IMG/VR virus record: IMGVR_UViG_3300043446_004814
Span: 1-29,417 of that record
Strand: one strand, 5' to 3'
Source: a virus
DNA length: 29,417 nt
The translations under genes and the position numbers were made by a program. Positions 8,164 to 23,054 of this stretch are shown here, piece after piece (the stretch's first letter is position 1; the number at the start of each line of letters is the position of its first letter). The notes under the pieces were generated by a model, which worked only from the letters and a program-made list of their open reading frames with translations, did no database searches and was not told the DNA's origin.

Positions 8164-8469
8164 TCAACGCCTTGCAGAGATGTTGGCACGGCGTTGGCTC
8201 ACTGGCCGGAAAATAGCCACTCCTCGCACGCCGTTGGAGCACATGACGCGAATGATTTTTTTTTCAAAAGATTTTTGCGTGGTGAGCGTTTTCATCTGCG
8301 AATTCACCGTTGCGAGCGATTGTCCGGATTCTTCGGCAATACTGGCGAGGGTTTTCCAGCCTGCGGATTCGTAGGCGGCCAAGTTATCTTCCTTCGTGCT
8401 CGCGTAGTATTTCGCCCAGGCGGCGCTCAGATCGGGAGCAGCCAGGGATTCCCCTTTTTTCTTTCGCAT
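8164..8469 (-). CDS. Small HTH-like protein, last gene of the late operon
   Basis: From the ATG at 8469 the protein has 101 residues, starting MRKKKGESLAAPDLSAAWAKYY. The middle part (SAGWKTLASIAEESGQSLATVNSQMKTL) reads as a helix-turn-helix (TLASIAEESG-S-ATVNSQMKTL), with a following wing-like segment (IIRVMCSNGVRGVAIFRPV). The longer frame to 8628 lies within the phosphoesterase gene and starts with an Arg-rich, antisense-like peptide, so I reject it. The gene overlaps the upstream phosphoesterase by 43 nt, and its last residues (RRANISARR) are encoded by an arm-type repeat. Role unknown; it could regulate late or integration functions. Confidence 0.6.
   Translation of the reverse strand: MRKKKGESLAAPDLSAAWAKYYASTKEDNLAAYESAGWKTLASIAEESGQSLATVNSQMKTLTTQKSFEKKIIRVMCSNGVRGVAIFRPVSQRRANISARR
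8181..8200 (+). repeat. Integrase arm-type site candidate (late-gene side)
   Basis: TGTTGGCACGGCGTTGGCTC differs at two of 20 positions from the copy at 7983-8002 and has the same orientation. The two copies lie 198 bp apart and bracket the tRNA-Thr core and the terminator. This copy is inside the last codons of the HTH-like gene. Confidence 0.65.
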
Positions 8470-9158
8470 AAGTTGACGGTCAAAGCCGTGTCGCAGTAGT
8501 GGCCCCACGCGAAGCCTTGCGACCACGCTAAAGTGGCGCGGCGTTCGGCGGCGTAAGGCATGTCGAAGTTGGCGAGCATTCCCACGCAATAGCCAGAGGC
8601 TCCGTCGATGTTGCGGGCTCGTTCCCAACCGACGCGGTGGAGGTGGGCCATCACGACATTGCCGTAGGTCTCGGCGTGATCCCTGATGGCCATGGTATTG
8701 AACATACTTCCATGCACGAATTTGGTGCCGCCGAGTTCGACATAGTTGCGGATTCCGTAGGGGGTGATTGGCGCGCGGAGCTTTTTGGCGGTCTCTTCGA
8801 TTTTTTGGATCGTGAGGTTGGCGGCGTAGGCGAGGAGGGCGTTTGGGCTTTTGGAGAATTTCCAGAGGCGGGCTTCGTGGTTCCCGCAGAGGATTTGGTT
8901 TGGCTCAAGTTCGTGGAGGAATTCAATGCCGGCCATCAGGTCGCCAGCGACATCAGAGGCATGGTCTGCGTCGTTGCTGTCGCGCACGGCTCCGGCGCGG
9001 AAGGCGGAGAGGTCGATGAAGTCGCCGAGGTGCAAAGTGGTGTGGGGCTTCCAGGCACTTCTGAACCTAAGCACACAGGCGCGGGCTTCGGGGTCGATCT
9101 CCGCGCCGTGGCTGCATCCGACGGCCATCCACTTTTTCCATTTTTTGATCGGGGTCAT
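8427..9158 (-). CDS. Calcineurin-like metallophosphoesterase
   Basis: The protein has 243 residues and carries the motif series of the calcineurin-like superfamily: CSHG near residue 15, HLGDFID (Asp46), CGNHEAR (Asn93, His94), VHGS (His149) and AHLH (His172, His174). The first motif usually reads DxH; here Cys15 stands in place of Asp, so one metal ligand is altered or supplied elsewhere. Substrates in this superfamily range from phosphoproteins and nucleotides to nucleic acid ends; none can be deduced. It sits after the lysis genes, coupled to the 86-aa gene by ATGA. Possible roles include DNA or RNA end processing or nucleotide clearance; this is speculation. Confidence 0.82.
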   Translation of the reverse strand: MTPIKKWKKWMAVGCSHGAEIDPEARACVLRFRSAWKPHTTLHLGDFIDLSAFRAGAVRDSNDADHASDVAGDLMAGIEFLHELEPNQILCGNHEARLWKFSKSPNALLAYAANLTIQKIEETAKKLRAPITPYGIRNYVELGGTKFVHGSMFNTMAIRDHAETYGNVVMAHLHRVGWERARNIDGASGYCVGMLANFDMPYAAERRATLAWSQGFAWGHYCDTALTVNLCERKKGNPWLLPI

Positions 9159-9415
9159 GGGAGGTCGGGGATTTCGTTATCTTTGCGAAGCTCCCAAATG
9201 TAGGAGCGGACTTTTTCAAGCGTGTGATCGCACGCTGTGACGACATTGCCGGTCTCTTCATCGCGCCATTCGCGGAACTCGCCGGCGCCGTGTTTAAGGA
9301 AAGAGCGGATTTCGTTAAGAAGGTCATCCAGTATTAAAATGGCATCCATGCCTTTTACCGCCGCGATGTGCTCGGTGCGTTCTTCGGGAAGGTTGAATTC
9401 CAAAGTGGCCTTCAC
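9155..9415 (-). CDS. Hypothetical late phage protein, 86 aa
   Basis: The protein begins with a GTG read as Met (MKATLEFNLPEERTEHIAAV) and continues as a mostly helical acidic polypeptide (GMDAILILDDLLNEIRSFLKHG, ...TLEKVRSYIWELRKD). The ATLEFNLPEE---H--A--G pattern recurs in many small phage proteins of unknown function. It is coupled on both sides (GTGA upstream, ATGA downstream). I know of no tested role. Confidence 0.65.
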   Translation of the reverse strand: MKATLEFNLPEERTEHIAAVKGMDAILILDDLLNEIRSFLKHGAGEFREWRDEETGNVVTACDHTLEKVRSYIWELRKDNEIPDLP

Positions 9416-9666
9416 GCGGTTTCCTCCTCGTCGTCTTCCTCTTCCTCTTCGTCTTCGAGTGGCCAGAGAATTTCTTCAGCCTCGCGGGCGAGGTTGCGGG
9501 CGGCGTGGCTGTTGCCGAACTTGAAATCCATGTCGAATGTTGTGCCTTGGTCCTCCCACGAGACAACGCACACGCCGCAATCAAAGTGCTCGGCGAGGGT
9601 TTGCCGGACTTGGAGGAGGATGGCCTCGCGGTCTTTGGGCGGGTTGGATTTTGCTTTGCGGCTCAT
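9412..9666 (-). CDS. Hypothetical late phage protein with acidic tail, 84 aa
   Basis: The N-terminal part is basic (MSRKAKSNPPKDREAILLQV). The middle has a Cys-containing strand (FDCGVCVVSWEDQGTTFDMDF), and the protein ends in a run of about 15 mostly Glu and Asp residues (EDEEEEEDDEEETA), from a CTT/CTC-like low-complexity DNA stretch at about 9420-9460. Such acidic tails often mimic DNA or bind basic partners. No family recognised. It is coupled by ATGA to the endolysin gene upstream. Confidence 0.6.
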   Translation of the reverse strand: MSRKAKSNPPKDREAILLQVRQTLAEHFDCGVCVVSWEDQGTTFDMDFKFGNSHAARNLAREAEEILWPLEDEEEEEDDEEETA

Positions 9667-10142
9667 GCCAAGATGTCGCGCTTCGCCTCCACGCGGGCGC
9701 GGAGGCTGGCGAGGAATTCGCGTTCGGCGAGGCCGCGCGCCCAGGCGGGGCGGAACTGGTAGTGGGGGTCATCCACAAACTTCCAGCGGCCGCCCCACTC
9801 GAGGCCGAGGCTTTCGCCCAGCGGGCCGAGTTCGCGGTAGAGTTTGTGCGTGCCGTGGTAGGTCTTGCCGTCGCCGCTGAAGACGCCGACATCGATGGCG
9901 AGGCCGAAATTGTGGTTCGAGAATCCGCCACGGGCGTTGGTGACTTTCGGCCCCGCCGTGGTGCGGCCCTTCGCGTAGAGGGCATCCTGCTCGGCATAGC
10001 TGCGCAGGCCGGAGATCGCGCGCACATCGAGGTTTTGCTTTAAGGCGATGGCTTTTGCCGCCATCACAAACGAGCGCATGACCTGCTGGACCTCCGGGTG
10101 GAGGGTGGAAATGGTGCGGTCGCTGCGCTGGTCGAGCGTCAT
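9663..10142 (-). CDS. Endolysin, M15 family peptidase (VanY/CwlK-like)
   Basis: The protein has 159 residues. The zinc-peptidase motif SNHNFGLAID gives His77 and Asp84 as zinc ligands; Glu115 in GLEWGG is the likely catalytic base and His127 in DDPHYQF the third ligand. The upstream stretch ISGLRSYAEQDALYAKGR is typical for phage M15 peptidases. These cut the peptide stem of peptidoglycan (D-Ala-D-Ala or L-Ala-D-Glu bonds) and act as endolysins. There is no signal peptide, so export must depend on a holin; two candidates lie just upstream. It is coupled by ATGA to the Lys-rich peptide gene. Confidence 0.93.
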   Translation of the reverse strand: MTLDQRSDRTISTLHPEVQQVMRSFVMAAKAIALKQNLDVRAISGLRSYAEQDALYAKGRTTAGPKVTNARGGFSNHNFGLAIDVGVFSGDGKTYHGTHKLYRELGPLGESLGLEWGGRWKFVDDPHYQFRPAWARGLAEREFLASLRARVEAKRDILA

Positions 10143-10297
10143 TTCTTTTTCGGTGCAGGCTTTTTTTTCGCGGCAACTATTCGGGATTTCCTAATAGTTG
10201 GCTTTTTGGCGCGCGGCTTGCGCAGCGGCTTGATTGCTGGCTCGGCGGGTGGCTGGGCCATGGGGAACATGCGGCGTAGGAAGTCGAAAATGTGCAT
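10139..10297 (-). CDS. Lys/Pro-rich small basic protein in the lysis cassette, 52 aa
   Basis: The frame reads MHIFDFLRRMFPMAQPP and then a strongly basic region (KPLRKPRAKKP, RKSRIVAAKKKPAPKKK). The start shares a base with the upstream stop (TGATG) and the end overlaps the endolysin start as ATGA. The short amphipathic N-terminus and polycationic tail might bind membrane, peptidoglycan or nucleic acid; cationic lysis aids are known in phages, but no homology is recognised here. Confidence 0.55.
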   Translation of the reverse strand: MHIFDFLRRMFPMAQPPAEPAIKPLRKPRAKKPTIRKSRIVAAKKKPAPKKK

Positions 10298-10548
10298 CAC
10301 TTGTCTCGGAGGGTGCGGGTGGAGAGTTGGAATTGATCAAGGGCGTGGAGTAGGCCAGCGGCATCGCGCTCGCCTTCGCTGAGGCGCGGCTCAAAGCGGA
10401 CGCTTGTGCGGATGTGCAGCGTGCCAGCCTCGCCGACTCTGTCACCGAAGGGCGGCACGGGGACGGCCACGCACGAGGTGAGGAACGCGAGTGCCAAGAA
10501 TATCCACCCGAGGATCACCATCGTGGCGGCGACTTTGGCGGGCGTCAT
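10297..10548 (-). CDS. Small lipoprotein, Rz1/spanin-like candidate
   Basis: From the ATG at 10548 the protein has 83 residues. A hydrophobic signal sequence (about 7-22: AATMVILGWIFLALAF) ends in the lipobox LTSC, so Cys26 should be lipid-modified. The mature part starts VAVPVPPFGD, Pro-rich as in outer-membrane spanin subunits. The longer frame to 10671 lies over the holin-like gene and is rejected. Position between the holin-like gene and the endolysin fits a spanin or other envelope-disrupting role and points to a diderm host. No separate inner-membrane spanin is recognised unless it is one of the small membrane proteins here. Confidence 0.65.
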   Translation of the reverse strand: MTPAKVAATMVILGWIFLALAFLTSCVAVPVPPFGDRVGEAGTLHIRTSVRFEPRLSEGERDAAGLLHALDQFQLSTRTLRDK

Positions 10549-10718
10549 TTGCTGCGGCGAAGTATGTTTATCGCCCCAACCGCCGTGAGCGCAAAACTGA
10601 TCAGGGCCTCTTGATGGTCTGGAGAAATTTTTAAACCCAACGCCACGGCCAAAAATATCAAACCGCGCCATGTCGAGCTTTCCGATAACCGATCTGCCAG
10701 ATAATTGAGTGCTTTCAT
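10545..10718 (-). CDS. Holin-like small membrane protein, 57 aa
   Basis: The frame reads MKALNYLADRLSESSTWRGL and then IFLAVALGLKISPDHQEALI and SFALTAVGAINILRRSK. Two hydrophobic segments (about 19-30 and 38-52) flank a short acidic turn, and the wording LSESSTWRGL--L-VALG---SP---EAI is typical for a common small phage holin family. It would form the membrane lesions that release the M15 endolysin. The start codon lies inside a hairpin (10716-10734), so its expression may be limited by RNA structure. It ends in an ATGA overlap with the lipoprotein gene. Confidence 0.72.
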   Translation of the reverse strand: MKALNYLADRLSESSTWRGLIFLAVALGLKISPDHQEALISFALTAVGAINILRRSK

Positions 10719-10734
10719 CTCCCTTGTGGAGATG
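10716..10734 (-). promoter_or_regulatory. Hairpin covering the holin start codon and ribosome-binding site
   Basis: CATCTCC-ACAAG-GGAGATG forms a perfect 7-bp stem with a 5-nt loop. The 3' arm contains the only Shine-Dalgarno-like sequence (AAGGGAG) and the ATG itself, so folding would hide the start. Timing control by a start-site hairpin is known for phage holin genes. Confidence 0.55.
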
Positions 10735-10742
10735 TCAAAGAC

Positions 10743-10925
10743 TCAATCCTTTTTGTCTTTGAGCAGCTTAAAAAGGGTAACCAAGCCGACGACGAGGCCG
10801 ACGGTAACGGAGCAGAGGCGCACCCAGGCTTCGAGGTGGGGGAGTAGGGAGTAAATTGCCGCGCCGATGGAGGTGGCACTGCCGAAAAGGCCGGTGGCGA
10901 ATGTTTTCAAAGGGTGGCTGTCCAT
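10743..10925 (-). CDS. Small two-segment membrane protein (second holin candidate), 60 aa
   Basis: From the ATG at 10925 the protein reads MDSHPLKTFATGLFGSATSI, followed by two hydrophobic segments (about 9-28 and 36-55, with RLCSVTVGLVVGLVTLF) and the charged end KLLKDKKD. A much longer frame to 11612 is antisense-like His/Arg-rich sequence over the tail gene and is rejected. It follows the large beta-repeat gene by 8 nt. It may be a holin, or an antiholin partner of the adjacent 57-aa protein; which is which cannot be told from sequence. Confidence 0.6.
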   Translation of the reverse strand: MDSHPLKTFATGLFGSATSIGAAIYSLLPHLEAWVRLCSVTVGLVVGLVTLFKLLKDKKD

Positions 10926-10933
10926 CTCTGCGA

Positions 10934-13873
10934 TTAGGAGATTGTCAAAGTGCTGGTGGCTGAATCGTAGCTTCCGGTGCGGCCGGGTGCTCCGGCGAGG
11001 GTGACGCTGGCGTAGGTCTGCGTGGTAGAGCCAGGGAAGAAGCGGAAGGTCATGCCGACCGTGGGCGCGGTGTTGAAGCTCACGCCGAGCGTGGTGGGGC
11101 CGAAGGTGGCGGTGGCGGTGCTGGCTCCGTTGGTTTTGGAAACGGTGATGGCGCCTGCCGAGATCGAGGTCGAGCCGGTGTAGGCGTGGGCGGCGCTGCC
11201 GAGTGCGAGGGTGCCTGCGCCTTGCTTGGTGAGCCCGCCGCCGCCGGTGCCGTCGGCGAGCGTGGCGGCGACTGTGAGCGCGCCAGCGACATTGAAAATG
11301 GCACCGCCGGATTTGACCGAGAGCGTGATCGTGGCGGGGATCGAAAGGGTGTTGAGGCTTTGAAAGGTGCCGCCATTGAAGTTGATCGTGGCGGGCTGGG
11401 CGGTGGTGATGTGGGTGATGCCTGTCGTGGTGAGGGTGCCGCCGTTGAGGTTGATGACGGTGGAGACTCCTGCCGAACTGCCGCGATTGATGAATAGTGA
11501 TCCGGAGTTGATGGTCCCCGTGCCGGAGACGGTTAAAACTCCCGCGCCTGTGCCGCCGCCGCACTCGATGCCGATCGTGGTGATGGTGCCGCCGGAGACA
11601 TTGACAAGGCAATTCGCTCCGGCCAGCCAGGTGCCGCCATTTGTGTTCACGGTGCCGCCGGAGATATTCAGTGTGCCGCTGCCGCCGTTATTGTCGCCGA
11701 GCATCATTCCGCTTCCGAGCGAGACGACTGCCGTGCCGCTGATATTAACCGTGCCTGTGTTGCCTCCGGTGGCTGCTATCTGGAATCCGCGGACACTCCC
11801 GGCGGTGTAGGATTGGGTGAAATTTCCCGAGATATTTAAGACGGGATTTGCCGCGCCGTTGATGGATACGGCGTTGTTGGCGGTGAATGTGCCGGGGATC
11901 GTTAGCTCGCCTGCGGCAACGGTGGTGGCTCCGCCGTAGGCGTTGCCAGATCCGGAGAGGGTGAGCGTGCCGGTGCCGGATTTCACGAGGCCGCCGGTGT
12001 TGGTGGATGCGAGCGAGCCGAAGCTGATTGATTCGCCATTGGAATCGATGCGGATCGCCGATGTGGAGTTTTTGATTTGAGAGGAAATGTCGATGGTGAT
12101 GCCGGTGGCATATTGGAGCGTTCCGCCGGTGAAAACGAGCGTGCTGGTGCCGATGGCGCTGGCATGGCCTAGCTGGAGCGTGCCGCCATTGAGCGTGGTG
12201 GTGCCTGAGTAGGTATTCACCCCAGTGAGGGCGAGCGTGCCGTTGCCTTGCTTGGTGAGGCTGCCGGTGCCGGTGATGAGGTTGGCAAAAGTGATATTGT
12301 CGGCGCGGTTGAAAAGGAGCGTCGCGGCGTTGGCGATCGCGCCGAGGATGCTGCCGTTGATTTGCAGGGTGCCTGCGTTGATCGTGGTGCCGCCGCTGTA
12401 GGTGTTCGCTCCAGAGAGAATGAGGATGCCGCTGCCGGTCTTGGTGAGTGCGCCGGTGCCGGTGATCGCTTGTGGGATCGTGAGGTTGCCCGAGGCGGCG
12501 TTGATCGTGCCGCCCGCATCTTGAATCAAAACGACAAGCTGGGAAATCAGTGCAAATGTCGCGTTGTTTTGAAATGTGCCGCCATTGAAAATGAGCGCGT
12601 GTGAGCCCGCGCTGTATAATGAGCCAGAGCAGATGAGCGTGCCGCCTGCGCTGCCGTTGCCGAGGGTGATCGTGGTGCTGGCGCCCGCGCCACCCTGGCC
12701 GAAAACGATCGAACCGGTGGTCATGGTGCCGGTGCCGTAGATATTGAGGAGGCTAGTGGAGTTTGGCACACCTGCCGTGGAGCCGCCGCCGATGTAGAAA
12801 GTGTTCCCGCCGGTGGTGAGTGAGCCACTGGCGATGTTGGCAACCGAGGTCGGCCCAGCGAACCAGAGTTGGCCGACGGTATTGAGCGAGCCGCCGAGGA
12901 TGTTGAGCGTGGAGGTGCCGACTCCGTTGTCGCCGAGCATCATTCCCGCGCCGAGCGTGGCGGTGCCGTAGACATTCAGAACGGAGTTGTAGTTGAGGGA
13001 CTGAGCGAGCTGGAATGAGCGCACCGAGCTGCCAGGGTTGCTCTGCGCAAATGTGCCGATGAGGTTGGTCGTGCCATTGCGGAGTTGCACCACCACCGAG
13101 GCCGTGCCAGCGAGGCTTTGGGTGCCGGTGCCGGTTTTGAAAAGGGTGTTCGTGCCGGTGATCGCTCCGGAGAAGCTGGCCGTGCCGGAGTTGTCGGCGA
13201 GCTCGAGAAAAAATGTGCCGAGGGCCAGCGTGCCCGCGCCGGAGATATTGAGCACGGCCTCGTTCCCGCCGAGTTGGAAGGTCGCGCCCGCATCGACGAC
13301 CAGCTCCGAGGAGTTGCTGATGCGATCAGCGGTGCTGGTGGTGAGCGTGCCTTCGCGCACGCGGGTCGTGCCGGTGTAGGTATTCGCTCCCGAGAGGGTG
13401 AGCGTGCCCGTGCCGACTTTTAAAAGGCAGAGCGCGCCTTGCGAGGTATTGCCGCGCGCGATCGCGTAGGTGCGCGCGCCGCTGGTGGTATCGAAGCCGA
13501 TGAATGCACCGGCCGCGAAATTTGTCGTGGCAAGCATGGCGGTGATCTCGGCGTCCGTTATCGCATTGTAAACCGCGAGGGCCGCGCCGGAGGCCACGGA
13601 GAAGCGGCCATTGGTGGCATTGCCGGGGAGCGCAGCGAGCGTTTCGATCGTGAGCACGCCATCGCCCACGGTGGTGTTGCCAGTGTAGGTGTTCGCGGTC
13701 GAGAGCCGCAAAATGCCCGCGCCGGTTTTGACTATGTTTATCGCGCCGCTGAGGGCCGAGGTGATCGCGGCCTCGGTGAAGACATAGAATGACCGGATCG
13801 AGGCCGTGGCGCTGGCGATAGCACGCACCACGCTGGTGCCGATCCTCGCTGCGCTGGAGTCCGGTAAAATCAT
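10934..13873 (-). CDS. Putative tailspike/receptor-binding protein made of autotransporter-associated beta-strand repeats
   Basis: The 979-residue protein starts at the ATG at 13873 (ATGA overlap with the upstream adaptor gene); the frame beyond it is spurious. At least six units match the autotransporter-associated beta-strand repeat (G-G-L-L-G-NTY-G-TT---GTL): about residues 48-76, 151-178, 477-505, 538-566, 628-657 and 880-909. A second, longer duplication of about 130 residues links 275-405 and 684-815, each with GMMLGDN. The predicted fold is a long right-handed beta-helix. There is no signal peptide, beta-barrel or PEP-CTERM anchor as in cellular relatives. It closes the fibre cluster and precedes lysis, so I infer a virion spike that contacts the host surface. 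Confidence 0.78.
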   Translation of the reverse strand: MILPDSSAARIGTSVVRAIASATASIRSFYVFTEAAITSALSGAINIVKTGAGILRLSTANTYTGNTTVGDGVLTIETLAALPGNATNGRFSVASGAALAVYNAITDAEITAMLATTNFAAGAFIGFDTTSGARTYAIARGNTSQGALCLLKVGTGTLTLSGANTYTGTTRVREGTLTTSTADRISNSSELVVDAGATFQLGGNEAVLNISGAGTLALGTFFLELADNSGTASFSGAITGTNTLFKTGTGTQSLAGTASVVVQLRNGTTNLIGTFAQSNPGSSVRSFQLAQSLNYNSVLNVYGTATLGAGMMLGDNGVGTSTLNILGGSLNTVGQLWFAGPTSVANIASGSLTTGGNTFYIGGGSTAGVPNSTSLLNIYGTGTMTTGSIVFGQGGAGASTTITLGNGSAGGTLICSGSLYSAGSHALIFNGGTFQNNATFALISQLVVLIQDAGGTINAASGNLTIPQAITGTGALTKTGSGILILSGANTYSGGTTINAGTLQINGSILGAIANAATLLFNRADNITFANLITGTGSLTKQGNGTLALTGVNTYSGTTTLNGGTLQLGHASAIGTSTLVFTGGTLQYATGITIDISSQIKNSTSAIRIDSNGESISFGSLASTNTGGLVKSGTGTLTLSGSGNAYGGATTVAAGELTIPGTFTANNAVSINGAANPVLNISGNFTQSYTAGSVRGFQIAATGGNTGTVNISGTAVVSLGSGMMLGDNNGGSGTLNISGGTVNTNGGTWLAGANCLVNVSGGTITTIGIECGGGTGAGVLTVSGTGTINSGSLFINRGSSAGVSTVINLNGGTLTTTGITHITTAQPATINFNGGTFQSLNTLSIPATITLSVKSGGAIFNVAGALTVAATLADGTGGGGLTKQGAGTLALGSAAHAYTGSTSISAGAITVSKTNGASTATATFGPTTLGVSFNTAPTVGMTFRFFPGSTTQTYASVTLAGAPGRTGSYDSATSTLTIS

Positions 13874-14214
13874 CCGACGATGATGTAGAGAGTAGTCGCC
13901 GATGGCGTGCCGATGGCGTTGTAGCCTGCCTGCGTGATCTGCACGACATTCGAGAGCGCGGTCGCGCCCGTGAGCCCGCTGGTGCTCGAGGCCACGGCTC
14001 CGATCGCGGCGGGCGTAAGGACATCCGCGCCGCCAGCGGCGTGCGTGCTCGCGTGCGGCGAGGAGGCGAGGGAGGGTTTGCTGGTGATATCCTGCCACGA
14101 GACGGCCCGCGCCTGCGCGCCGACGACGACCCAGGCGCTTCCGGTGTAGCGCCAGGTCTTGTCGCCGCTTGTGAAAAGATCGTTGGCGCTCGGGCTGTCG
14201 GGGAAGTCGATCAT
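13870..14214 (-). CDS. Tail fibre adaptor-like protein, 114 aa
   Basis: The first 30 residues, MIDFPDSPSANDLFTSGDKTWRYTG, match the FPDSPS-G--FT--G-TWRYTGSAWV module common at attachment ends of phage fibre and collar proteins. The rest is Ala/Thr/Ser-rich (ASTHAAGGADVLTPAAIGAVASSTS), with a THAAGGAD motif seen in fibre shafts. It is coupled by ATGA to the beta-rich gene upstream and to the large beta-repeat gene downstream. It may link the spike to the tail, or form the N-terminal attachment subunit of that spike. Not an enzyme as far as can be seen. Confidence 0.7.
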   Translation of the reverse strand: MIDFPDSPSANDLFTSGDKTWRYTGSAWVVVGAQARAVSWQDITSKPSLASSPHASTHAAGGADVLTPAAIGAVASSTSGLTGATALSNVVQITQAGYNAIGTPSATTLYIIVG

Positions 14215-15317
14215 GGTGTCGAGAGGGCGGCTGCAAGTTGCTCGCCCACGATCTCAGCAGTGGCGCAATTTTTTACCCGCTCGCCGATCGATCCGGAGGT
14301 GGTGAGCGAGCTGGTGAGTGCGTCCCACACGGCTGAGGCCACGGCCGCGCCGGTGAGGAGTGCCGTGCCGGTGGTGCTTCCGACGGGAACGCCGAGGGCC
14401 ACTGATCCGGCGGCTGGGACTGCACAAGTGCCGACCATGCCGCCGCCGTAGCTGATGCCGCTGCGGACATCGGTTGTCGCTGGGCCAAGGCCGGTGTTGT
14501 CAGCGGTGAACATATCGACATAAGTTCCCGCGCCAGAAAGCGCGTAGCGGGTTTTTGCGGCGAGGGGCGTAGTGTCCAGCGTGAACTTTTGAGCGTAGAT
14601 TGGAACAATACCAGTTGATGAGTGAATGAATGAGCCGCTGAGCCGGTTGGTCGCGCCTGCATTGGATGAGGTGAAGGCAGGCACTGCCCCGGCGGTGATC
14701 GTTCCGAGGATTGTGACGGTTCCGGTGGAGGCATTATTGACTCCTGCCGCTGCGCTTCCGGAGGTGACATTGCCAGAAATTGTTACTGCTCCAGTGGAGT
14801 TGTTGTTTACTCCAAAATTCCCCGATCCAGACCCGCCAGTAATAGTGCCAGAAACGGTGATATTTATGCTTCCAGTTCCACTATTTTGCACGCCTTGGTT
14901 GCCGGCATTTGACACACTGTTTGAGATATTTACGCTAGTCAATGTCAATGCGCCTGTTGAAGAGTTGTTTACCACAATAATCGACCCCGCGCCTCCCAAA
15001 TTCGAAACATTTCCAACAATGGCTGCGGAATTTGCACCGGTAAGAGACACGCAGGAACCACCTGCCCCGCCTATTACATTTGCGGTAAGCGTGACGCCGT
15101 TGGATAAAACAAACCCACCGCCTGATGCACCCCCGTAAATTGTGCCGTTGGTCACATTGTCGCAAGTTGCGTTTGCGGTGATTGTGACCGTGCGGTTGTT
15201 GGCAATAGCATTGTCGCCAGCGATGGGCACGGATGCGCCGGGGGAACCGGCGGCGGTCGTTGACCATGTGGCGGTGTCGTTAAAGTTGCCAGAGGCAACG
15301 GCGAAGCGATTTGCCAT
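14211..15317 (-). CDS. Beta-rich tail fibre or decoration protein, 368 aa
   Basis: The N-terminus MANRFAVASGNFNDTATWSTTAAG resembles a module frequent in phage structural proteins. Residues about 50-210 consist of short Gly/Asn/Ser/Thr-rich repeats (SNGVTLTANVIGG, NNSSTGALTLTSVNIS, NSGTGSINITVSG, NNSTGAVTISG, NNASTGTVTILG), the pattern of a right-handed beta-helix with about 20-residue turns. The C-terminal third (about 240-368) is a different, Ala/Gly-rich domain (YALSGAGTYVDMFTADNTGLG, ...GAAVASAVWDALTSS). The DNA of the repeat part is more AT-rich than its neighbours. It is likely part of the host-recognition cluster. Confidence 0.7.
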   Translation of the reverse strand: MANRFAVASGNFNDTATWSTTAAGSPGASVPIAGDNAIANNRTVTITANATCDNVTNGTIYGGASGGGFVLSNGVTLTANVIGGAGGSCVSLTGANSAAIVGNVSNLGGAGSIIVVNNSSTGALTLTSVNISNSVSNAGNQGVQNSGTGSINITVSGTITGGSGSGNFGVNNNSTGAVTISGNVTSGSAAAGVNNASTGTVTILGTITAGAVPAFTSSNAGATNRLSGSFIHSSTGIVPIYAQKFTLDTTPLAAKTRYALSGAGTYVDMFTADNTGLGPATTDVRSGISYGGGMVGTCAVPAAGSVALGVPVGSTTGTALLTGAAVASAVWDALTSSLTTSGSIGERVKNCATAEIVGEQLAAALSTP

Positions 15318-15320
15318 GGC

Positions 15321-15602
15321 TCAAAGTCCTTTCTCGTTGATGTAGGCTTGGAGAGCCGATTGGATCGCGCCCACGGCTTGCTGGGTGGCTTCGTCGCTGC
15401 CAGCGATGGAGCCGAGGGCGATGCCTTTAGCCGCTTCATCGGCGGTGACAACTTCGCCGTTTTCAATGCGGGTGGGCACGAGGCGCATGGCGACATTGGC
15501 GTCGGGGCTGCCGTCGGCGTTGTATTTGCCGGTGATGGCGAGGTTGAGCGAGTAACGGTCGAATGTCTGGCCGTCGATGGTGATGGGATTAGATGCGGTC
15601 AT
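15321..15602 (-). CDS. Hypothetical tail-associated protein, 93 aa
   Basis: From the ATG at 15602 the protein reads MTASNPITIDGQTFDRYSLNL, then AITGKYNADGSPDANVAMRL and an Ala-rich helical C-terminus (AAKGIALGSIAGSDEATQQAVGAIQSAL). Short proteins of this form (strand-rich start, ITGKYNADG, RL-P-R---G) occur next to fibre genes in several phages I recall; function unknown. Start and upstream stop overlap as ATGA. The longer frame to 16004 covers the neighbouring fibre gene and is spurious. Confidence 0.6.
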   Translation of the reverse strand: MTASNPITIDGQTFDRYSLNLAITGKYNADGSPDANVAMRLVPTRIENGEVVTADEAAKGIALGSIAGSDEATQQAVGAIQSALQAYINEKGL

Positions 15603-16142: not shown

Positions 16143-17006
16143 TTAGTAGCTGCCGCAGTCGATCGTCACATCGGAGATCGTGACGAAGGAGATCGCGCCG
16201 CCGGTGATCGAAACATTGTTCGCGTTCTGCGTGGCGATGCTGCCGAGGCCGAGATTGGTGCGGGCGACAGAAGCGTCGGCGAGGTCGGAGAGGTTCGAGG
16301 CTTTGACCAATTTCTCGCCCAGGCTGGTGCCGATGGTGGCGGCGAAGTTTGCGTCTCCACCGATTGCTTGTGACAGCTCTTGGAGCGTGTCCAATAATGC
16401 GGGCGCGCCGTTGACCAGGTCGGAGACCTTGGTATCGACATAGCCTTTGTTCGCCGCATCGCTCGAGCTAGTCGGATCGGCGAGGGAGACGATTTTGTTG
16501 GAGTTCAGCGAGACATTCGCAGTCGGCGCGGCCATCTGGTCGAGGCGGCTTGTGCGGACTTGGGTATCGAAGTCGCTGATCTTGGAGGCCGTGAGAGTCG
16601 GGATGTCGGCCGCGTCGAGGCTTGCGCCGGAAGTCGCCAAACCTTTTGCGTTCACGGTGAGCTTTGTGAAAGTTCCCGCTGTGATTCCAGAATTCGCCAG
16701 CGTGACGGCGATGTCGGCATTCGCGCTGCCATCGAAGCTGGTGGAGCCGGTGGCGTCCGCGCTCAGCGAGATCGTGCGAGCGGTCTGGAGCTTGGTCGCT
16801 GTCGCGGCATTGCCCGAAGAGGAAGCGGAGTCCGCGTAGGCTTTGGTGGCGAAGATGCCTTCACCGCCAATCGCGAGCGCGGTGCCGTCGGCCTGGCCGA
16901 CATAGAGGTTTTTGTTTGAGAGGTCGATTGCCAGCTCACCTGCGAGGAGAGCGTTATTTGCTGGGGCATTACTGCCCCGCTTGATTTGGAGTTTTGGTGC
17001 GGCCAT
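16143..17006 (-). CDS. Tail fibre protein, 287 aa
   Basis: The protein begins MAAPKLQIKRGSNAPANNALLAGELAIDLSN, the classic fibre start (KRG---P----L--GELAID---KLYVG) seen in T4 gp36-like and related fibres. The shaft is Ala/Thr/Ser-rich (SSGNAATATKLQTARTISLSADATGSTSFDGSANADIAVTLAN) and includes AANKGYVDTKV, a frequent fibre motif; a helix-like region (LLDTLQELSQAIGGDANFAATI) follows. It would trimerise into a fibre. It is preceded by a CA-rich leader with no Shine-Dalgarno and followed by a GC hairpin, an arrangement shared with the major capsid and major tail genes, which suggests strong expression. Confidence 0.85.
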   Translation of the reverse strand: MAAPKLQIKRGSNAPANNALLAGELAIDLSNKNLYVGQADGTALAIGGEGIFATKAYADSASSSGNAATATKLQTARTISLSADATGSTSFDGSANADIAVTLANSGITAGTFTKLTVNAKGLATSGASLDAADIPTLTASKISDFDTQVRTSRLDQMAAPTANVSLNSNKIVSLADPTSSSDAANKGYVDTKVSDLVNGAPALLDTLQELSQAIGGDANFAATIGTSLGEKLVKASNLSDLADASVARTNLGLGSIATQNANNVSITGGAISFVTISDVTIDCGSY

Positions 17007-17021
17007 TTGGTTTTTTTAGGT

Positions 17022-17034
17022 TGGTGGTTGGGTT
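17022..17034 (-). promoter_or_regulatory. CA-rich leader motif AACCCAACCACCA (fibre gene)
   Basis: AACCCAACCACCA stands 15 bases upstream of the fibre ATG at 17006, in a leader of almost only A and C on the minus strand with no Shine-Dalgarno sequence. The identical 13-mer precedes the major capsid and the major tail genes. Confidence 0.55.
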
Positions 17035-17050
17035 TGGTTGTGGGTGAGTG

Positions 17051-17704
17051 TCAAAAGGTGCCCGCGTCCACGGTGCCGGGGGCTTGTGCGTAAGCGGTGC
17101 CGGTCCAGCGCCAGAGGGTTCCGTCGTCGGCGGCGAGATAGAGGCGGTTCAACCGGCCGGAGACCGGGAAAGCCGTGGCGGTGCTGTATTGATAAACGAT
17201 CTGCGCGGCCTCGATGGCCTGAGCCGTGCGGAGCGGAGTCATCCACGCGGAGTTGTTTGTGCCTGCCTCAGCTTCGGCTTGGGTGGCCTTGCCATCGGGC
17301 ATTGCCTGCGGCGTGCCCTCGGTGCCAAGGATCACAGAGTTTTGGACTTCGGCTTTGAGCGTGGCAGTGCGGGTCACCTCGCCGGGCACGGTCCAGCGGA
17401 TCTCGATGAGCGCGGGGAGGGAGGCTTTGCCGGTCGAAAAAGATGCCTCCAGGGGGACGGTGTTTAGGTTTAGGGTGGGTGGTTCCCCGGAGGCAAGAGC
17501 GAGAAAATTAGCGTCGTTGAAAGCGAGCTTAAGCGCGCAGGTGATTGCGGTGCCTGCGGGCGTGGCCACGGCTTTGCCGTTTTCGCAAAACACATATTCC
17601 AGCGGAATGAGGTCGCGGCGCTTGAGGACGAGGCGGTCGAGCGCGACATTGCTCGCAGCGGACTTAATGAGTTCCCGCTTTTTTGTGTCGATGAAAAGTT
17701 TCAT
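17051..17704 (-). CDS. Tail fibre protein A, paralogue of the next gene, 217 aa
   Basis: The N-terminal about 160 residues (MKLFIDTKKRELIKSAASNV, LDRLVLKRRD, AVATPAGTAITCALKLAF, NSVILGTEG, NSAWMTPLRTAQAIEA) align along their length with those of the upstream gene at 17758-18882, so the pair arose by duplication. After the TPLRTAQA hinge the two diverge: this one ends with PVSGRLNRLYLAADDGTLWRWTGTAYAQAPG, the short terminal domain typical of fibre or adaptor tips. The shared N-terminal domain probably docks to the baseplate; the different ends would contact different partners. A 23-bp identical DNA block lies at the hinge. Confidence 0.75.
   Translation of the reverse strand: MKLFIDTKKRELIKSAASNVALDRLVLKRRDLIPLEYVFCENGKAVATPAGTAITCALKLAFNDANFLALASGEPPTLNLNTVPLEASFSTGKASLPALIEIRWTVPGEVTRTATLKAEVQNSVILGTEGTPQAMPDGKATQAEAEAGTNNSAWMTPLRTAQAIEAAQIVYQYSTATAFPVSGRLNRLYLAADDGTLWRWTGTAYAQAPGTVDAGTF
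17223..17245 (+). repeat. 23-bp direct repeat at the fibre hinge, copy 1
   Basis: The block from GCCGTGCGGAGCG to ATCCA at 17223-17245 is identical to 18404-18426. On the minus strand it encodes the MTPLRTAQ hinge in both fibre paralogues, the point where their C-termini diverge, so it could serve as a recombination site for exchange of fibre tips. Confidence 0.7.
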
Positions 17705-17757
17705 GCCGCTGCGACTCGCGGCGTGTCAAAAAGCCCTCCGAGCTTTTCCAGATGCGG

Positions 17758-18882
17758 CTAGGCGTAGACCAGCGAGGCGCGCTGATCCCAAGCCCCAGAA
17801 GCAGTGCCAGAGCTGGTCACCGAGCCTGCGGAATTTGTCACCGTGCGGCGGATCGTCCACCCGGAGGCGGACTCGGCAGTCGCAGGGGCGGCGCGGCCGG
17901 TATAGATCGTGCCGCCGGAAACTGCGCTTTTGGCAATGAAGGCGGACATTTTTGCGGCGAGCGCATCGGCGAGGCCGGTGATCTCGCTGATCGCGTGGGT
18001 GTGGCCGGGCTGGCTGGCGGTATCGGCTTTGGCTCCCTGCGCGGCGGTGGCGTAGTTGCCGAGTGGTTGCTTCGTGGCGAGCGCGGAGTCCAGGCCAGTG
18101 ATCTCGCTGGTGGCGTGCGTGTGGGAATCGGGCGGGAATGTCGCGGGCTTGCCGGTGAGAGTGCCCCAAGCGGCGGGCGGCGAGACGGCGCTCACGGCGG
18201 CGGCAAAATCCGAAACCTCGGCGGCCGTGTGCGTGTGGGTGGCTGCCGCGTAAGAGCCAGAGTCTTGTTTGCCATCAAGCGCGGCTTGCAGGCCGAGGAT
18301 TTGGCTCGTGGTGTGGGTGTGGCTCGCGGGCGGAAACTCGGAAGGCTTGCCGGGGAGGCTCGCCCAAGTCACCGAAGCGCTGCCGAGCGCGGCGATCGCC
18401 TGCGCCGTGCGGAGCGGAGTCATCCAAGTTTCGTTGGAAGTGCCAGCGGTCGCCTCGGCGGCGGTGGCTTTGAGGCTCGGCACCGAGGAGGGCAGGCCCT
18501 CATCGCCGAGGATCACGGAGTTCTCAATATCTACGCAAAGCGTGGAGGTGCGGGTCTCTTCACCTGGGCGGGAGGTCTTGACCTCTAGGAAAGCGGAGAC
18601 CGATGCGGGATCATCGGCAAAAAGCGCCTCGAGGTCGGTCGTGTAGAGATCCAGCAAGCCGGTTAAGTCGGAGAGCGCGAGGAAGGCGGTGTCGGAGAAT
18701 GCGGTCTTGAGGCCGGTGGAAAAGCTCGTGCCGGTGGGCGTGGCGACGATGGCGGATTTTTCGACAAAGACGATCTCGACATCTACCTTGTCGCGGCGCT
18801 TAAGGAAAAGCCGCTCGAGCGGAATACTGGATGCCGGACCGCGCACGAAACGGCGGGTCGCGATGTCGATGTAAAACTTCAT
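17758..18882 (-). CDS. Tail fibre protein B with four HTH metal-binding repeats, 374 aa
   Basis: The protein has the same N-terminal domain as its paralogue (MKFYIDIATRRFVRGPASSI, FLKRRDKVDVEIVFVE, NSVILGDEG, WMTPLRTAQA at about 153-161). After the hinge come four shaft repeats of about 28-40 residues with the core HTH (188-190, 216-218, 254-256, 294-296), e.g. LTGKPATFPPDSHTHATSEI. HxH repeats bind iron in trimeric fibres such as T4 gp37, so metal-stiffened shafts are likely. The C-terminal about 50 residues (IYTGRAAPATAESASGWTIR...GAWDQRASLVYA) match the end of the protein at 15599-16087. Inferred role: host-contacting fibre. Confidence 0.82.
   Translation of the reverse strand: MKFYIDIATRRFVRGPASSIPLERLFLKRRDKVDVEIVFVEKSAIVATPTGTSFSTGLKTAFSDTAFLALSDLTGLLDLYTTDLEALFADDPASVSAFLEVKTSRPGEETRTSTLCVDIENSVILGDEGLPSSVPSLKATAAEATAGTSNETWMTPLRTAQAIAALGSASVTWASLPGKPSEFPPASHTHTTSQILGLQAALDGKQDSGSYAAATHTHTAAEVSDFAAAVSAVSPPAAWGTLTGKPATFPPDSHTHATSEITGLDSALATKQPLGNYATAAQGAKADTASQPGHTHAISEITGLADALAAKMSAFIAKSAVSGGTIYTGRAAPATAESASGWTIRRTVTNSAGSVTSSGTASGAWDQRASLVYA
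18404..18426 (+). repeat. 23-bp direct repeat at the fibre hinge, copy 2
   Basis: This is the second exact copy of the 17223-17245 block, in the same orientation, 1181 bp away. Recombination between the two would fuse the N-terminal domain of one paralogue to the C-terminus of the other and delete the segment between. Confidence 0.7.
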
Positions 18883-19907: not shown

Positions 19908-20580
19908 ATGAAAAAATCCACTCGGTCCAATACCCGTAGTTCGTGGATGAGAAGTTTAGGATCAGGGAGTTGTCGTCAAAGAGTGTGGGGTCCTCATAGG
20001 CCGAAAAGGGATAGCCTGGCGTTAGAAGTCGCGTGGACTTCTGCGGCACCGTCGGGAATGTGAATACAATGTTCTTGTAGGTGGCTCCACCGATTGAGCC
20101 TCCTCCGCTTTGGGAAAATCCGGTGGATTGCTCGTTTTCGGTAAAAGCGGAAATGGGGTCAAAATAACTTTCTGGGATTTGGCCAAAAACAAAATTAGGA
20201 AAAGTTTGGCTCACCACTCTTACAATTACGCTGCCTCGGACCATGGCGCCCCACGAGAGTTGGCACTGCTTTACTTTTCGCTCGATGGTCGCGGTCGATT
20301 TCGCCCGCCCGTAGGCGCTGACGATGAACTCGGTGAATCCATCTTCGCGGCGGCGCTCCTGCGCTTCGGGGAAAATCTTGAGGCCGTCGATGCAGGGGGA
20401 GCTGTCGCCGTCGGGCATGTTGTTGCCGACCGCGAGGGTGGCGCGGTGGGTGGCGGCTTGGCTGGTGAGGCCGAGGTAGGTCTGATCCACGCGCACGAGG
20501 CCGGAGGGGAAGGTATTCACGGCGCGGCCGGGCTGGGCGATCAGGGCGGTGGGGTTCGAGGTGAAGATCGTGTAGCTCAT
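19900..20580 (-). CDS. Distal tail protein candidate, 226 aa
   Basis: The gene is directly downstream of the tape measure gene (TAATG coupling at 20580), where siphophages usually encode the distal tail (Dit) or baseplate hub protein. The protein starts MSYTIFTSNPTALIAQPGRA and is strand-rich (GLVRVDQTYLGLTSQAA, FTEFIVSAYGRAKSTATIERKV, GSVIVRVVSQTFPNFVFG), consistent with a beta-sandwich ring protein, but I recognise no Dit signature. The 3' part of the gene is more AT-rich than its surroundings. Function is inferred only from synteny. Confidence 0.5.
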   Translation of the reverse strand: MSYTIFTSNPTALIAQPGRAVNTFPSGLVRVDQTYLGLTSQAATHRATLAVGNNMPDGDSSPCIDGLKIFPEAQERRREDGFTEFIVSAYGRAKSTATIERKVKQCQLSWGAMVRGSVIVRVVSQTFPNFVFGQIPESYFDPISAFTENEQSTGFSQSGGGSIGGATYKNIVFTFPTVPQKSTRLLTPGYPFSAYEDPTLFDDNSLILNFSSTNYGYWTEWIFSYG

Positions 20581-23054
20581 TAGGCGGTGAGTGCGGCGAC
20601 GGGCAGGCGGGGTTCGATTTTTTCGACGAGCTTGAGGATTTGATCCACGATGCCTTCGAGGCCCTTCTTGCCGCCGGTGTCGCCACGAGTCGGGGGCTTT
20701 TGGCCGTCTTGACCGGGCTTATCGACTTTGGCGCGGCGGGCGGCGAGTTCGTCTTTCAGGGAGCCTTTGGCTTTGAACTCCTCAAGCGCGGATTTCTTCT
20801 CGGGTTTGCTGAAATCTTTGTAGACGCCATCCTCGCGGGCGGCGCGGATGCGCTCGCGGAAGCCGCTGGAGCTTTCTCCCAGGCCGCGACTCAGGCCGTA
20901 GTCCTTCCCAATGTCCGCCATGTTGCGCCGGTCGCGGTTTTCGCCGACCCCGGTGAGAGCGGCTTGGGCTTCGTTCTCGGCGATCTTACTGGCCGTGCGG
21001 CGCGCTCCGGAGAAGTCGCCACGGGCGATCTGGTCCTGGGCTTTTTTCTGGAGCTTTCCGCCTTGGTCCACGGCATCTTTGGCCTCGGCGTCGGCGATGT
21101 CTTTTAGAATCTGCTGTGAAATGGCGAGTTCCTTGTTGATGCCTGCCTGCTCTTGGCGGGCGCGGGCGATCTGGTCGGCGAATGCCTCGGCCTCGGATTT
21201 GCCCATACCGGCATCGATGGCTTGCTTGAGTGCGGCGTTGTAGTCTCTCTTATAGTTGAGGGCTTTGACCTCTTCGTCATTGCCGCTGATCTGGGCTTTG
21301 AGGATGGCCAGGTCGAGTTCGAGGTTTTCGCGGAGACCGGCTTGGCGCTCGGCTTGTTTTGCGGCGGCTTCTTTTTCTTTTTCGGCACGCTTGGTCTCGG
21401 TATCGAGCAGGAGTTTTTTTAGCTCCGAGGTTGTCTCTAGTTGTTCATTCTGGCCGCCGATGCTTTGGCTTTGTTCCTCGACCTTTCCGGTAATCGAGTC
21501 GGTGAGGGAGAAATTGCCCTCGAGAAGCGGCTTGGTGCCTGAGATCTTGGAGTTGAGGTCGGACCAGCCAGAAGTAATGCCGTCCACCGTCGGCTTGAAA
21601 TCCGAGTTGATGGTAAACGCGCTGGCGATGCTGTTGCCTGTATCTTCGGCTTTTGAGGCGAGGCCGGAAAATTCCCCGCTTGCGGCGGCGGCTTCGAGGC
21701 TTGCTTTGGTAAGTTTGCCGGATGCATCTTGAGCCGAGTCGCCGAGTTTCCCGAGGTTTTGCTCGGCGGCGGAGGAATTGGCGGCTGCTTGATCGATTTG
21801 CGGCGCGGCGGCTGCGGCGGCATCCCCTACTTTTTGCACTCCTTCTGCGGCGGCTTTTTGCCCGGCTCCAGCTTCAGTGCCTTTATCCCGCAGAAGCATC
21901 ATCAAATCATCCATAGGCGAGATGAATTTGACCGCTTCGTTCATCCAATAATTGAAGCCATTTAGAGACTCTGCGACGGCGTTTACTGATCTGCCAGCAA
22001 CCGTGGTGTTGTCCGGCGTGGAAGAAAGAAAAGCTAAGAACTCTTTTCCGTATTTGATCGCGCCTTGCATGGCCGGGATCAGGTCGTTGTTGAGCGTGGA
22101 GACAACCTCTAGCGTGGGTTTTTGCAGCCCATCGCCAATCGAGGTTTTGAGTTCAGCGTAGGTAGCGGAAAGGATTTTGAGCTGATTGGAAACAGACCCA
22201 GAGGTGTTCGCAAAATCCCCCTGTGCAATTCCGCTTTGTCCGAGAATGGCGTTGTAGGCGGCAAGGGCCTTTGCCTGGGAGTCGATAGCTCCTTTGCCGT
22301 CATAGAGGCCGAGCTTCATTGCCTCGGCTTTCAATGTGGCATCATCTAGCAGGATGCCATATTTGCGGATCGGCTCAGACTCTCCGCGAAGCGCCGCGCC
22401 GATGGCTTGGATAGCCTCCTCTGGCGAGGTGTTGTAGAAGCTGGCAAAATCCGTGGCGAGTTGGACAAGGTTCCTCGAGAAGCCTACAAGCTCGCCGCCT
22501 GCCAATCCTGCGGACTTCCCAAAGACCGCGAAAGTCGAAGCGGCATCCAGAGCCTGCTGGCGGGTCATGCCGAGTTCTTGCACGGCCGTCGCGGCAAAAT
22601 CGGCGACGGCACCGGCGGCAGAGCCGAAGACGACATTCACCTTGTTCATCGTCTCGGCGAGGTCGGAGGATTTTTTGATAGAATCCCCGATGAACATAAA
22701 CGCTTCTTGGAAGCCCATGATCGCGGCGTAGGCCCCCGAGATCGCGCCGGTCAATTTGCCGAAGCTGATGCCGCCTGCATTCACGGAATCATTGGCACGG
22801 TCGAGCTGGCGGATCTCGCTTTCAAGCCGGTTCACCTGAGCGGCAGACTCAGCGGAGTTGTCCCCCATGGCCTTAATTCGCTTTTCCATCGACTCCACCT
22901 GGCCGATCCGGCGCATGGTTTTCTCAAGCTCCTCCATGGAAAGCTCGCCGCTTTTGACCGACGAGCGAAGTCCGGCCATCTCGTCTTGAATTTTCGAGAG
23001 CGTCTTTTGCAGGCCGACATCCTGCGCGCCGAATTCTACTGTGACATCAGCCAT
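20580..23054 (-). CDS. Tail tape measure protein
   Basis: The 824-residue protein starts MADVTVEFGAQDVGLQKTLS, then a coiled-coil region (EKRIKAMGDNSAESAAQVNRLESEIRQL). The conserved TMP core (about 85-330) includes MNKVNVVFGSAAGAV, ELGMTRQQALDAASTFAVFGKSAGLAG, ALRGESEPIRKYGILLDD and AILGQSGIAQGDFANTSGSVSNQLK. Long helical, Ala/Glu/Lys-rich parts (about 540-760) and a charged Pro/Gly C-terminus follow. It sets the tail length; at about 0.15 nm per residue the tail would be near 120 nm. It is short for a TMP and carries no clear lytic domain. It lies between the chaperone genes and the distal tail genes, as in lambda-like tails. Confidence 0.93.
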   Translation of the reverse strand: MADVTVEFGAQDVGLQKTLSKIQDEMAGLRSSVKSGELSMEELEKTMRRIGQVESMEKRIKAMGDNSAESAAQVNRLESEIRQLDRANDSVNAGGISFGKLTGAISGAYAAIMGFQEAFMFIGDSIKKSSDLAETMNKVNVVFGSAAGAVADFAATAVQELGMTRQQALDAASTFAVFGKSAGLAGGELVGFSRNLVQLATDFASFYNTSPEEAIQAIGAALRGESEPIRKYGILLDDATLKAEAMKLGLYDGKGAIDSQAKALAAYNAILGQSGIAQGDFANTSGSVSNQLKILSATYAELKTSIGDGLQKPTLEVVSTLNNDLIPAMQGAIKYGKEFLAFLSSTPDNTTVAGRSVNAVAESLNGFNYWMNEAVKFISPMDDLMMLLRDKGTEAGAGQKAAAEGVQKVGDAAAAAAPQIDQAAANSSAAEQNLGKLGDSAQDASGKLTKASLEAAAASGEFSGLASKAEDTGNSIASAFTINSDFKPTVDGITSGWSDLNSKISGTKPLLEGNFSLTDSITGKVEEQSQSIGGQNEQLETTSELKKLLLDTETKRAEKEKEAAAKQAERQAGLRENLELDLAILKAQISGNDEEVKALNYKRDYNAALKQAIDAGMGKSEAEAFADQIARARQEQAGINKELAISQQILKDIADAEAKDAVDQGGKLQKKAQDQIARGDFSGARRTASKIAENEAQAALTGVGENRDRRNMADIGKDYGLSRGLGESSSGFRERIRAAREDGVYKDFSKPEKKSALEEFKAKGSLKDELAARRAKVDKPGQDGQKPPTRGDTGGKKGLEGIVDQILKLVEKIEPRLPVAALTA

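Follow-up and report, generated by a model that had tools for sequence, protein, structure and literature searches.

The gene described here encodes a phage protein built from PATR repeats, and its closest described relatives are the type Va autotransporter passengers (TibA, Ag43, IcsA, Ssp and fusolisin), which it resembles in its PATR-type sequence and predicted beta-helix, and the HK620-type tailspikes, with which it has in common a structural gene that lies where a fibre cluster of the phage ends and a predicted right-handed beta-helix. The same PATR repeats also make up surface proteins of Verrucomicrobia and Lentisphaerae (assemblies L027 and L028), several of them with PEP-CTERM. Unlike the type Va autotransporters, the phage spike has no barrel, shows no signal peptide that we could see, and is coupled to a fibre gene; it also has a PATR-free N-cap and a C-cap, for which the cellular genomes searched gave no clear match. 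It differs from HK620-type tailspikes in that the repeats of its family are PATR, from one to many, and that its N-terminal segment is a family of its own, whereas the proteins of L027 and L028 have a signal-peptide-like start and a C-terminal sorting signal and, in a sample of the phylum, show no N-cap and, if weak or spurious hits are set aside, no C-cap. Both beta-helical spikes and PATR repeats are already known, and PATR has been annotated automatically in phage proteins before: A0A6J5M3L0 of an uncultured Caudovirales phage is labelled ‘Autotransporter-associated beta strand repeat’, and matches our spike only weakly by fold (E 0.47). In the open-access literature searched, we found no paper on PATR proteins in phages and no description of a capped PATR family of variable repeat number paired with a fibre tip; the family is so far unnamed.

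The window, that is, the whole stretch of DNA analysed, is a 29.4-kb virus record whose minus strand carries, in order, a portal, a head protease, a putative head protein, tail genes, the tape measure, fibre genes, the spike, lysis genes and an integrase. The preliminary description had placed the spike inside a fibre cluster, and the neighbourhood bears this out, with PTR, Mtd_N-like and Phage_tail_C genes upstream and an endolysin downstream, all on one strand. The same strand carries the portal, head protease and tape measure still farther upstream. The genes nearest to the spike are:

20580-23054, minus strand: tape measure protein (phrog_7025, E 4e-25)
16143-18882, minus strand: further fibre and minor tail genes of the same cluster
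14211-15317, minus strand: beta-rich gene without a Pfam or PHROG match, overlapping the tip gene by 4 bases, with relatives in L012, L136 and L143
13870-14214, minus strand: tail-tip gene, PF24243 Phage_tail_C at residues 89-113, product ending TLYIIVG, stop codon overlapping the spike start (ATGA)
10934-13873, minus strand: PATR spike gene, 979 aa, predicted beta-helix (PF12951 six times, E 2.2e-44; AlphaFold pLDDT 84.6)
10743-10925, minus strand: holin-like 60-aa ORF (label by eye), starting 8 bases after the spike stop
9663-10142, minus strand: endolysin (phrog_2649, E 2.3e-27)

The spike sits in a late structural-to-lysis gene arrangement. A promoter scan, which is a weak test, found no promoter-like site in window positions 9400-15400, and terminator-like sites were at chance level. 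Within the fibre cluster, positions 16143-17006 give a weak match to Mtd_N (22.0 bits, below the cut-off of 26.3); Mtd_N is the N-terminal domain of a retroelement-diversified tropism protein.

The spike open reading frame proposed at 10934-13873 was recovered with exactly these ends, on the minus strand. Mechanically it extends upstream to a TTG at 14236, and the ATG at 13873 is supported as the start because it forms an ATGA overlap with the upstream stop and because relatives start at the same residue. The claim of at least six repeat units held: the protein contains six PF12951 stretches (149.6 bits against a cut-off of 27), and the six copies were also found singly in a six-frame search of the contig (E 3e-17 to 8e-11). 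An internal duplication is likewise real, and its size had been put too low at 130 residues; it spans about 390, residues 138-524 against 527-936. Along the gene, these elements are arranged as follows:

13739-13873, minus strand: N-cap, residues 1-45, PATR-free and conserved in the family, the proposed docking segment (residues 1-20 at low pLDDT)
13646-13735, minus strand: PATR repeat 1
13340-13426, minus strand: PATR repeat 2
12359-12448, minus strand: PATR repeat 3, the best (E 3.1e-17)
12170-12259, minus strand: PATR repeat 4
11897-11989, minus strand: PATR repeat 5
11141-11233, minus strand: PATR repeat 6
12302-13462, minus strand: internal duplication, copy 1, by self-alignment
11066-12295, minus strand: internal duplication, copy 2, by self-alignment
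10937-11176, minus strand: C-cap, residues about 900-979, conserved in the family alignment

The duplication was measured by split alignment, as self-BLASTP gave only the trivial match; the best non-overlapping self-alignment has 155 identities over 368 aligned positions and a BLOSUM62 score of 525, against a mean of 154 and a maximum of 201 in 200 composition shuffles. Such shuffles lose the repeat structure; the duplication, however, spans stretches that are not PATR as well. By this alignment the spike body appears close to a tandem duplication of most of its length.

The absence of a barrel or anchor noted in the preliminary description was also borne out. PATR is the sole Pfam match of the window spike (E up to 0.01); Pfam gave no translocator beta-barrel at the C-terminus, which is occupied by the C-cap, and no PEP-CTERM sorting signal, the protein ending in ...SATSTLTIS. 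N-terminal hydropathy, a weak test and the only one applied here, is 1.34 for the window spike, 1.9-2.0 for four cellular PATR proteins and up to 1.96 for other phage members, and by this measure no signal peptide of the cellular-PATR kind was seen in the window spike. PHROGs gave two weak matches only (E about 5e-4), one of them annotated as tail fibre. These features bear on the alternative feared in the preliminary description, a protein that the lysogen would make and, as with cellular PATR proteins, export to its surface. The phage has an integrase and cellular PATR proteins look secreted, but in the spike no signal peptide was seen and no barrel or sorting signal was found, its start codon lies in the stop of a fibre gene, the holin-like ORF follows it by 8 bases and the promoter scan, weak as it is, was negative for the region. 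With the gene placed in this way between fibre and lysis genes, we consider a lysogenic-conversion surface protein highly improbable.

The spike belongs to a family carried by many environmental phages, with relatives in numerous viral contigs. A protein scan found six full-length loci at about 50% identity, an alignment-based scan found 20 loci, some of them partial, and a scan with the first 60 residues of the spike found 54. The N-cap scan combined with a scan for the upstream tip gave 67 distinct full spike sequences; at 90% redundancy 56 remained, and once an artefactual start (L086:4334) was dropped there were 55 non-redundant full spikes, the window included. These complete members range from 147 to 1166 aa; every one has a PATR match (55 of 55, E up to 0.001) and none matches any other Pfam family. 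All are built alike, with an N-cap free of PATR at the start, a C-cap at the end and between them a repeat body that differs in length: M1, L3, S6, A9, G43, K49, G51, G53 and L55 are invariant within the first 55 residues and G900, T902, G907, L959, S974 and T975 within the last 80, and the family alignment has no invariant position between the two ends. The shortest member, of 147 aa (L069, the same gene as in L124), consists of the N-cap, one repeat and the C-cap, and the family can therefore be described as a capped solenoid of variable length. By tblastn, the spike found a single short match, covering 10% of the query, among 50,697 named phage records. A scan of viral contigs with one repeat pair returned only three loci because it relies on exact short peptides, and it does not measure how prevalent PATR is. 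One relative, at L021:10001-12817, ends early at 938 aa with a C-terminus different from that of near-identical relatives, its C-cap lost either by frame change or by assembly error.

The gene directly upstream of the spike recurs as well. In all 18 junctions examined, several of them from near-identical phages, the product of the gene just before the spike ends in a conserved tip peptide of the form QIT.aGY.a plus TLYIIVG, in some cases slightly altered. In the window this peptide corresponds to the Pfam family PF24243, ‘Phage tail tip domain’; the genes overlap as ATGA in 17 junctions and meet as TAATG in L025. In the scan that started from the N-cap, the tip gene lies directly upstream in 45 of the 54 loci, usually with the 4-base ATGA overlap; in seven its place is taken by another fibre-cluster gene, ending TVATTGDQIAAAFNSP, and in two the upstream end is divergent. 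One peptide pattern, which misses the tip of L136, places a tip upstream of 46 of the 55 non-redundant members. In the scan that started from the tip, among the best 80 of 144 confirmed loci, an N-cap gene directly follows in 63, a proportion biased upward because the scan was seeded with tips from such pairs; another gene follows in 13 and nothing was called in four. Twelve of these 17 spike-less loci have an NTIYIIVG type of tip with no spike behind it, and in nine of those twelve a holin-like ORF lies at +45; in L073 and L081 the contig ends shortly behind the tip. The pairing is not strict, since nine N-cap loci out of 54 have no tip of the usual kind upstream and at least nine of these 80 tips are followed by a holin-like ORF.

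Several further genes accompany this junction. The genes upstream of the spike otherwise differ among phages, some carrying collagen-like repeats, and in L035, L041, L047 and L143 a spike gene coexists with a separate collagen-like fibre that has a C-terminal tip peptide and no spike behind it. The C-terminus of the window product at 14211-15317 is similar to that encoded upstream of the spike, in place of the tip, in seven of the 54 loci. Directly after the spike, often with a 4-base overlap, some loci carry a small gene of 70-110 aa with a start like MII.PN.NGWS and the motif LFVGT (L024:12958-13218, L035:4446-4661, L041:3858-4073, L135:6852-7064, L136:5885-6106, L143:6864-7079 and L152:9503-9835), which the window lacks and which may be a third gene of the cassette.

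The pair is found in phages that otherwise differ. The tail genes and tape measure of the window have relatives in L012, L013, L017, L138, L157 and L053, and its endolysin has relatives in L012 and L013, yet the place of the pair in L012, L013 and L017 is between head protein (phrog_1005) and tail genes, not before the lysis genes. Conversely, of the window proteins tested, only three have counterparts in L011-like phages within the available DNA: the tip, the spike and a metallophosphoesterase. The different place of the pair in the first group and the few genes in common with the second indicate that tip and spike move as a unit between backbones. The metallophosphoesterase (window 8427-9158) is itself kept near the spike across otherwise different phage backbones, at 62% identity to that of the window in L011, 65% in L012, 59% in L113 and 41% in both L024 and L029.

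Since L012, L013 and L017 have the pair behind the major head protein region and ahead of the tail genes, a head fibre is possible there, and the family could act in adhesion, with a PATR body on the capsid or along the fibres that holds the virion near particles, exopolysaccharide or cells rather than binding a specific receptor. Several spike members do follow collagen-like fibre genes, and the solved PATR structures are autotransporter passengers, several of them adhesins. The window spike, however, has the minor tail and fibre genes upstream of it and the lysis genes downstream, and the C-terminus of its upstream partner is a Pfam tail-tip domain, so that we regard a head- or virion-surface adhesion fibre as unlikely. 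In the same three phages, sugar-transferase-like genes (label by eye; L012:4772-8040, also in L013 and L017) separate the head protein from the collagen-like fibre/spike pair and may modify the fibre.

AlphaFold, run on an alignment of 15 sequences, gave an all-beta model of the spike (pLDDT 84.6, pTM 0.66) in which residues 1-20 are poorly defined. Foldseek against the PDB returned no match at E <0.001; a second structural aligner matched the model to TibA (Z 18.5, 258 residues, 3.3 A), to the HK620 tailspike (Z 15.9, 315 residues, 4.1 A), to Ag43 (Z about 16, at large rmsd) and, at similar scores, to PL6 alginate lyases, while two matches under E 0.001 in BFVD were not informative. On these structural matches the spike is predicted to belong to the right-handed beta-helix class. 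At the sequence level, a profile of 15 spike relatives matched solved autotransporter passengers, namely IcsA (1.7e-6), Ssp (2e-5) and fusolisin (5.4e-4). The 147-aa minimal member was predicted at pLDDT 90.0; its fold search found nothing significant, and its best matches, which are weak, are fusolisin (Z 4.7) and Ssp (Z 4.3), in both cases to the stalk.

Many beta-helical tailspikes cleave host surface polysaccharide, and with the HK620 tailspike and PL6 alginate lyases among its structural neighbours the spike might be a depolymerase. We consider this quite improbable: neither the window spike nor any of the 55 members matches a Pfam enzyme family, the one-repeat member of 147 aa is hardly large enough for a catalytic cleft, and the likeness to HK620 and PL6 is that of a common beta-helix fold, which is no indicator of function.

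Variation among close relatives is concentrated in the middle of the protein. In nine close phages, from which L021 with its different C-terminus was excluded, the ends of the spike are 95-98% identical per 50-column block, whereas columns 351-400 and 451-700 are at 73-88%, with single pairs down to 46%; three neighbouring genes average 95%, 98% and 93%. Across seven of the ten relatives, the ends have a pN/pS of 0.06-0.12 and most of the middle one of 0.24-0.33, always below 1, so the middle is of moderate diversity and under purifying selection. Between L009 and L011, identity falls to 50-63% in columns 481-660, while blocks 1-180 and 721-996 are at 92-98%, which points to an exchanged segment in the middle of the L009 spike. 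The pattern, a moderate signal in these alignments, fits a host-contact surface between constrained ends.

Cellular relatives offer a limited view of where the repeats came from. A scan of genome collections found two only, remote and partial, in Verrucomicrobia (L027) and Lentisphaerae (L028) assemblies with at least 150 and at least 92 PATR matches per genome, respectively; these are large proteins with signal-peptide-like starts, and several carry PEP-CTERM tails. The N-cap alignment matched 35 of 387 Verrucomicrobiota genomes, mostly over PATR columns only, and the C-cap alignment matched two of 377, both weakly, one in a PEP-CTERM protein and one in a protoporphyrinogen oxidase-like ORF (label by eye). 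Such bacteria thus share the repeats, but the caps look phage-specific. The preliminary description had suggested a comparison with host proteins as a test of recent transfer; none is visible, and with cellular relatives remote and partial and the caps essentially absent from the genomes searched, we reject it for now. We also considered the C-cap as a remnant of a pre-PEP-CTERM domain, which was not supported.

As for the host itself, the best named relative of the portal is that of Akkermansia phage Moulinsart (25.8%), which only hints at Verrucomicrobiota. Distant relatives of the head protein occur in 18 of 387 Verrucomicrobiota genomes, a count that has no control phylum, and the window head protein had no match among named phages. 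The tip alignment matched none of the 387 genomes in a search without a positive control, and the tape measure matched neither of two. GC content is 60% in the window and 32-51% in 13 related loci.

The preliminary description had further proposed that the spike mimics or docks to the host's own repeat proteins, and for this we found nothing beyond the shared repeats. A version of the idea, in which a spike of self-associating PATR repeats takes the abundant PATR surface proteins of the host as its receptor through an Ag43-like handshake between like beta-helices, strikes us as a long shot; if true, phage and host would compete in repeat number and sequence. The spike reading of that description is favoured: PATR repeats of the autotransporter type and a predicted beta-helix occur here in the product of a phage structural gene, which is probably a spike or fibre-tip protein because its gene lies in a late structural and lysis run, is coupled to a fibre gene, encodes a conserved PATR-free N-terminus and a variable middle, and has many relatives in viral contigs.

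From the sequence family, its repeats and duplication, the overlap with the fibre gene, the pattern of conservation and the signs of segment exchange, together with the predicted fold, we favour with reasonable confidence a modular receptor-binding virion spike, in which an N-cap sits on the fibre tip and a PATR beta-helix closed by a C-cap presents a repeat-variable, host-contacting body. The fibre and spike genes would be translated in step by translational coupling. We infer that the product is located in the virion, where the tip peptide of the upstream fibre would hold the N-cap, the beta-helix would point away from the particle and the C-cap would close its far end. The body would evolve by gain, loss and exchange of repeats, and its variable middle would touch the host and bind the receptor.

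The spike is most likely part of what the virus uses to contact its host. Repeats of the bacterial autotransporter type would then be the building unit of a fibre-tip family in phages with different genome backbones. The minimal member, with a start, one repeat and an end, makes the evolution of repeat number and the docking easy to test, and the recurrent tip and spike gene pair can guide the annotation of proteins for host recognition in uncultured phages, most of whose tail tips bear the label hypothetical.
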